The position numbers and the translations under genes were made by a program. From Halomarina pelagica (lineage in GTDB: Archaea > Halobacteriota > Halobacteria > Halobacteriales > Haloarculaceae): a stretch of 64,000 nucleotides of DNA. The notes beneath the pieces are model-generated. The model saw only the letters and a list, made by a program, of their open reading frames with translations. It ran no database searches and was not told the origin of the DNA. The stretch spans positions 372,001 through 436,000 of the forward strand of contig NZ_CP100454.1 of NCBI RefSeq assembly GCF_024228315.1, written 5' to 3'. The first letter of the stretch is position 1, and every line of letters starts with the position of its first letter. Below, in pieces: positions 33,712 through 35,213 of this stretch.

Positions 33712-33743
33712 GCGGAAGGAAGGGCTTATCTCGCCGCGTCGAC

Positions 33744-33750
33744 TATATAA
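33744..33750 (+). promoter_or_regulatory. Strong TATA box before the multi-hairpin RNA candidate
   Basis: tatataa, one of the clearest TATA boxes in the window, 33 bp after the upstream stop codon. No protein-coding start follows at leaderless distance, but the hairpin array begins about 65 bp downstream. Predicted transcription start is near 33773-33780. Confidence 0.6.
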
Positions 33751-33774
33751 AGTGCGCGCCTCTAGTCCCCGCCC

Positions 33775-33965
33775 GAGTTCATCCCCCGCGGATGCGATGA
33801 CAGCGCGGAGAACCCGGGCGCGCGACATGCGGGCGCGGTCCCTCGGGACCGCGCGTTCGGCGGTTGACGCCGCCTCACTGAAACGCGGTGCCTCTGGCAC
33901 CGTGGACTCGACGGCTAACGCCGTCTCGTCGTTCCGCGGCCCTGACGGGCCGCGCGCGCCCGGCA
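33775..33965 (+). ncRNA. Candidate structured RNA: five hairpins inside an 11-bp closing stem
   Basis: The closing stem is 33814-33824 (ccgggcgcgcg) with its exact inverse at 33953-33963. Inside are five perfect hairpins: 33833-33854 (10 bp), 33858-33872 (5 bp), 33886-33902 (7 bp), 33910-33925 (6 bp) and 33935-33954 (8 bp). The last overlaps the closing stem by two bases. Loops are 2-5 bases, three of them T-rich/A-containing (gttga, taac, tgac). A strong TATA box lies upstream. No RNase P, SRP or 5S signature is visible. Strand is inferred from the promoter. The start at 33775 is approximate and the 3' end is not defined. Confidence 0.55.
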
Positions 33966-34171
33966 CGAGGGTTTCCCGACCGACGCGGCACGCAGCCACG
34001 GGATGAGGTCGGACGTTAGTGTTCCGGGCGACATTCCAAAACTACCGCCAGCGCTACGCACGTCGCCTGCTACGGGGTGTCCATATGACGAAGCCGTGAG
34101 TCGGACGTGGGTCGATCGTAACTCGTAGTCGGACCTGAACGATTAACCAGGCCCGCGGACCAAGAACGGGT
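33966..34171. other. Spacer between RNA candidate and small ORF
   Basis: No gene supported. acgattaacca (34138-34148) is a TATA-like box about 28 bp before the ATG at 34172. Confidence 0.4.
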
Positions 34172-34418: not shown

Positions 34419-34748
34419 TCACCGAAGATACGTCTCCAGCTCGGAGACGACGCGATCGACGAACTCGTCGCTGACCCGACCTTGCCACGCCACTATATCC
34501 TCGATACGTGGAGAGTGGACCGCCCACGGAGAAACGAACGAGTCACGAGGTACGCCACCGATCTTCCAGACTCCGGATTCGAGCGTGAGCGAGTCGTCGT
34601 ACTCCTTCGTCGAGATGGCGACCGCGACGTACTGTTCGTCAGCGAACGGATGGGACTCGTTGTTCACGATGAGCCAGGGACGCTGCCGGTCGTTCCCCAC
34701 TTTGAACGGATCAATACTCCGAACGACGTCACCGCGTTCCGGCTGCAT
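34419..34748 (-). CDS. PemK/MazF-like toxin-family protein
   Basis: A 109-residue protein: ERGDVVRSIDPFKVGNDRQRP is the PemK/MazF opening (RGDVV... then RPWLIV), RPWLIVNNESHPFADEQY and VAISTKE follow as beta strands, and SFVSPWAVHSP and VDRVVSELETYL close the fold. Bacterial members are sequence-specific endoribonucleases. It starts directly after the stop codon of the winged-helix gene, so the two form an operon resembling a toxin-antitoxin module. Toxin activity is unproven. Confidence 0.75.
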   Translation of the reverse strand: MQPERGDVVRSIDPFKVGNDRQRPWLIVNNESHPFADEQYVAVAISTKEYDDSLTLESGVWKIGGVPRDSFVSPWAVHSPRIEDIVAWQGRVSDEFVDRVVSELETYLR

Positions 34749-35114
34749 CTATCGATCGTCTCGCTCGCTCGGGTGGGGCGTTTCCGGGGCAGTAGACTCC
34801 CATTCGTCGGCGTCGATGCCGCCGTCTTCCTCGTCGAGCCTCTCGGTAACGGTGTGAAGATCGTATGCAGCAGCTACGCGGTCCAAGTCGTCCGTTATCG
34901 CCCAGTACTCCCTCTTGTGCCGAACGAGATCGCGGTCCTTCAGCCGGGAGAGGGCGGTTCCCACCGTGTTCGGGTCCTCGTCGATCCCGGCTGCGATCTC
35001 CGACCGGGTGAACGCCTGCTCTCGATGGCTGTAGAGATAGGCGAGTACCTGCTTCGGGACGCTCGATCCACGCGGAAGCTCTCCCGACTCGAAGTCGTCG
35101 ATACTTACGGGCAT
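34749..35114 (-). CDS. Winged-helix (MarR-like) protein upstream of PemK-like gene
   Basis: A 121-residue protein. PVSIDDFESGELPRGSSVPK precedes a winged helix: VLAYLYSHREQAFTRSEIAA, GIDEDPNTVGTALSRLKDRD as recognition helix, and HKREYWAITD as wing. An acidic tail ends ERDDR. The start at 35114 gives this typical N-terminus; the longer frame adds 26 unlikely residues. It abuts the PemK-like gene with no spacing and may act as antitoxin and autorepressor. Confidence 0.75.
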   Translation of the reverse strand: MPVSIDDFESGELPRGSSVPKQVLAYLYSHREQAFTRSEIAAGIDEDPNTVGTALSRLKDRDLVRHKREYWAITDDLDRVAAAYDLHTVTERLDEEDGGIDADEWESTAPETPHPSERDDR

Positions 35115-35213
35115 ACTGTGTAATAGGCGTGCCGATGTAATGAGCGTACTGCTGTGCTGACCTGCTACCAGTAGTTCGGTTAACGCTAGCATGCCTCGCG
35201 ACGCCCCCGCCCG

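Follow-up and report, generated by a model that had tools for sequence, protein, structure and literature searches.

The intergenic locus described here in Halomarina pelagica is almost certainly the gene for a ~280-nt box H/ACA pseudouridylation guide RNA, orthologous in haloarchaea to HgcG/Pab40/Pf7. In the window, that is the whole stretch of 64,000 nt that was analysed and to which all coordinates refer, the gene extends from ~33752 to 34033 on the plus strand, as do all of its features given below. It comprises a 5' hairpin (HP1), a spacer of 129 nt, and a 3' hairpin (HP2), and both conserved hairpins carry a guide pocket, a k-turn-like GAUGA/CYGA motif, and an ACA end. The sequence-only reading had suspected a structured RNA at this site and was right to do so; the feature that it described, five consecutive hairpins closed by an outer stem and proposed as a new family, is the spacer, the variable middle of a known haloarchaeal guide RNA. 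The known halobacterial RNA is the one called sR-h45 in work from the Gupta laboratory.

Of 59 relatives, 51 matched in a DNA search with positions 33720-34010, and of the 40 good genomes among them, 38 did. The matches form two blocks, 33752-33827 and 33957 onward, with a variable middle between them. The pattern of the 3' block occurs in at least 119 stretches of public genomes, and to judge by their record titles, the matches listed come from haloarchaea or halophilic archaea, among them Halobacterium salinarum and several Haloferax. Presence in nearly all good relative genomes, together with the covariation of the conserved helices, bears out the view of the locus as a structured non-coding RNA. 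In line with this, the region folds at -125.2 kcal/mol, compared with -104.0 kcal/mol for shuffled sequences (z -4.4; 0 of 200 shuffles). The end first assigned to the RNA, 33965, proved too short, as it falls inside the 3' conserved domain, which extends to ~34033.

Upstream of 33752, the column composition of 49 homologs reveals a conserved archaeal promoter (33719-33729), in which a purine-rich BRE-like stretch immediately precedes a TATA-like, AT-rich box, TTAT, 26-23 nt upstream of 33752 (33726-33729). Numbered from 33752, the columns are A/G at -33 to -30 and 84-100% T/A at -26 to -24. The TATA box noted earlier is a different element: the sequence TATATAA is indeed present at 33743-33750, but it occurs only in H. 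pelagica and its nearest relative and is therefore not a conserved promoter element.

Alignments of the two blocks yield the same H/ACA fold, namely a lower stem, an internal loop, an upper stem in which CYGA/GAUGA forms a k-turn-like motif, and a terminal ACA. HP1 occupies 33752-33827, with its ACA at 33825-33827. In the alignment of HP1 from 40 species (A2), 96.5% of cells are paired and 10 of 15 pairs have changed on both sides, a degree of covariation reached in 0 of 500 shuffles and lying above every slid control. The HP1 covariance model, the training of which included the H. pelagica sequence, matches 33751-33834 with 89.4 bits. HP2 occupies 33957-34033 and ends in the ACA at 34031-34033. 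Its alignment from 39 species (A1) has 99.4% of cells paired and 7 of 17 pairs doubly changed, again with 0 of 500 shuffles reaching this level and above every slid control; the HP2 model, likewise trained with the H. pelagica sequence included, matches 33954-34037 with 100.1 bits. Across the aligned species, ACA (rarely AUA) follows both hairpins.

The upper stems of both hairpins contain candidate protein-binding turns. In HP1, a box-C-like GAUGA (33796-33800) faces CGAG, and by inspection CGA at 33774-33776 would form the other half of a k-turn; in A2, UGA is invariant and GAUGA near-invariant. In HP2, GAUGA at 34002-34006 would partner with CCGA at 33980-33983 in the same manner. The conserved pairs, CYGA/GAUGA in HP2 and CGAG/GAUGA in HP1, thus have the sequence signature of a putative k-turn or K-loop. 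Genes for the H/ACA core proteins Cbf5, Nop10, and Gar1 were found in the same genome, and by homology and published work these three proteins and L7Ae would assemble on each hairpin. The Cbf5 match (G000:C1:669605-670468, L197) contains one TAG within its range and an open frame of 291 amino acids; the TAG is probably the gene's own end.

To find candidate targets, we scored all uridines of the 16S and 23S rRNA from the same genome with a simple score that restricted the guide positions to the pockets. The best site for HP1 is 23S U2634, in GCUGGGUU[UA]GACC, the equivalent of E. coli U2586. Its right guide, AACCCGG (33811-33817), is the complement of CUGGGUU before this uridine, and its left guide, GUC (33765-33767; UC invariant and G near-invariant in A2), pairs 3' of the target UA over only 3 bp. 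The best site for HP2 is 23S U1971, in GGUAACUA[UG]ACCCUC, the equivalent of E. coli U1917. Here, the left guide GAGGGU (33967-33972; AGGGU invariant and the first G near-invariant in A1) pairs with ACCCUC after the target, and the right guide GUUAGU (34015-34020, in invariant columns) provides the UAGU register for U1971. By inspection, U1969, the equivalent of E. coli 1915, fits HP2 in a shifted register, in which GUUA pairs with UAAC and GAGGGUU with GACCCUC. HP2 would serve both U1915 and U1917 through a register shift. The E. coli numbers are those that we assigned in this analysis from conserved sequence context and take to be equivalent. When the guide positions were left unrestricted and the flanks untrimmed, the scan yielded only noise.

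The leads of these sites over the runners-up are modest (25 versus 22 for HP1 and 25 versus 24 for HP2), so the assignment leans heavily on its agreement with published targets. The relevant passages of Grosjean et al. 2008 (PMC2584109) predict, for halobacteria including H. volcanii, two H/ACA hairpins 'separated by a long spacer': HP1 would guide Psi2621, and HP2 both Psi1956 and Psi1958 (E. coli 2586, 1915, and 1917, respectively). The H. volcanii guides (Hvo1/Hvo2) are listed as experimentally validated in a section of a later paper (PMC4652768) that cites Blaby et al. 2011, so that for H. volcanii pseudouridine at the predicted sites is on record in the literature. As far as these passages describe it, the halobacterial RNA has the same hairpin order, the same targets, and, like the RNA in H. 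pelagica, a long spacer. The two accounts differ in that ours concerns a different species, and the main text of PMC2584109, in the portions on this RNA, has a long spacer and no mention of a hairpin array. Most likely, the RNA guides pseudouridylation of 23S rRNA at the peptidyl transferase centre and in helix 69. By homology and the published work, each guide pocket would pair with 23S rRNA and Cbf5 would turn the target U into pseudouridine.

An open frame of 84 amino acids is present at 33752-34006, so that the same DNA could in principle encode a small protein. Yet the length of the spacer varies regardless of codons, and the conserved letters track guide and helix constraints. Given both, we rejected the frame as a protein gene; that it is one has next to no probability.

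The relation to the known family emerged from the covariance models. Of 148 genomes of the phylum, 59 contain a match to the HP2 model. We fetched 14 such loci; 8 were recognised as RF00064 (HgcG) at E<=0.01, and two of these 8 exceeded the gathering score. In those RF00064 loci, the HP2 model sits on the 3'-terminal hairpin. Directly upstream of the HP2 match, in 11 of the 14 loci, lies a match to the HP1 model (E<=1), with the two hairpins abutting. HP2 is thus homologous to the 3'-terminal hairpin of HgcG/Pab40/Pf7 (RF00064; Thermococcales and other archaea) and HP1 to the preceding one. Pf7 has three adjacent hairpins (stems I-III); by contrast, the first of these is missing from the haloarchaeal RNA, and a spacer with hairpins parts the remaining two. 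It is therefore an HgcG-type ortholog of changed architecture, two hairpins split by a spacer rather than three adjacent ones, and not a standard member of RF00064. Rfam yielded no hit above chance, with no match to RF00064 in the 64-kb window at the gathering score, nor one at the locus at E<=5, and Rfam 15 gave no match in five other haloarchaeal loci (L060, L061, L094, L101, and L082).

These homologies bear directly on the proposal of a new structured RNA family with an outer stem and the five hairpins within it as its functional core. The better folding of the region than of its shuffles would agree with such a core, and an 11-bp complement between 33814-33824 and 33953-33963 does exist in H. 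pelagica. Its strands, however, belong to the lower stems of HP1 and HP2, which covary separately, and the complement joins the 3' strand of HP1 to the 5' strand of HP2. Nor is the outer stem conserved: among 134 loci, just 2 have all 11 pairs, the majority retain 7-8, and one position pairs in 7%. Partial complementarity persists because the lower stems of HP1 and HP2 are similar and GC-rich. Moreover, the hairpin number varies from 0 to 10 between loci, whereas HP1 and HP2 are constant. We therefore consider a new family with this core highly improbable; the five hairpins form the spacer in an already known H/ACA guide RNA with two conserved hairpins, which is homologous to RF00064 HgcG.

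The spacer (33828-33956) contains five hairpins, identified by sequence and fold: hairpin 1 (33833-33854, 9 bp), hairpin 2 (33859-33874, 6 bp), hairpin 3 (33884-33904, 9 bp), hairpin 4 (33910-33925, 6 bp, UAAC loop), and hairpin 5 (33936-33953, 7 bp, UGAC loop). All five are present as first described, and they are near-perfect rather than perfect, with one G-U pair each in hairpins 2 and 3. Several of the loops in H. pelagica are UNAC (UGAC, UAAC). Across 136 loci, the spacer measures 2-253 nt and holds 0-10 hairpins, and in four loci it is at most 9 nt long. Elsewhere, the HP1 and HP2 models match abutting hairpins, and the best reading of the array is hence that it was inserted between modules that are both ancient. 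On this comparison, the five hairpins would be part of a spacer that was inserted between HP1 and HP2 in haloarchaea. In one locus (L194, G044:C16) from a genome of the same order as H. pelagica, HP1 and HP2 abut without a spacer, which may help to date the insertion.

Upon closer examination of the spacers, we found that those of at least 60 nt fold with a median z of -4.3 relative to base-shuffled sequence. We then compared 31 non-overlapping pairs of related spacers, folding the structure from one member and using pairwise alignments of at least 70% identity. Among the doubly changed pairs, 60 of 74 were still paired, compared with a shuffled mean of 27 and a maximum of 36. In the closest relative of H. 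pelagica, most spacer changes lie in loops, where 7 of 40 positions differ, and 3 of 44 pairs are affected. Pair-preserving changes in the spacer stems are suggestive, and they could result either from template-switch mutation or from selection on RNA pairing. Put at just short of an even chance is that the haloarchaeal linker is a fast-evolving array of 0-10 near-perfect hairpins kept by selection on RNA pairing, possibly with a role of its own. Somewhat below this, yet still a substantial possibility, we place an origin of the hairpins as by-products of template-switch (quasi-palindrome) mutation in a tolerant linker, without selection as RNA. Limited to the spacer, this explanation does not conflict with the guide-RNA assignment of the whole. 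The wide variation of the spacer in sequence, length, and hairpin number, down to the four loci of at most 9 nt, is what a tolerant linker would show, and template switching would likewise give pair-preserving changes. Both the retention of pairing in 60 of 74 doubly changed pairs and the concentration of changes in loops, however, fit selection at least as well.

As to what the spacer does, we favour a passive but structured linker. Most likely, it would serve as a compact, nuclease-resistant link that holds the two RNPs apart. If the array is kept by selection on pairing, spacing of the two RNPs, protein binding, or protection at high salt might be among its roles. The expansion and shrinkage of the spacer between species appear to be little described, and we found no description of them in the portions of the literature that treat this RNA.

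With these assignments, a false new family is removed, and an intergenic locus that has no Rfam annotation in the haloarchaea tested gains a function. Since the two covariance models built from haloarchaeal HP1 and HP2 recognise the locus, it could be covered by a new family or by an extended RF00064. The spacers, at 2-253 nt, also provide a natural series in which to study what keeps two H/ACA modules apart and by what route hairpin arrays expand. On the minus strand downstream of the RNA lie two adjacent ORFs (34419-34748 and 34749-35192), which by eye encode a putative PemK-like protein and a putative DNA-binding partner.
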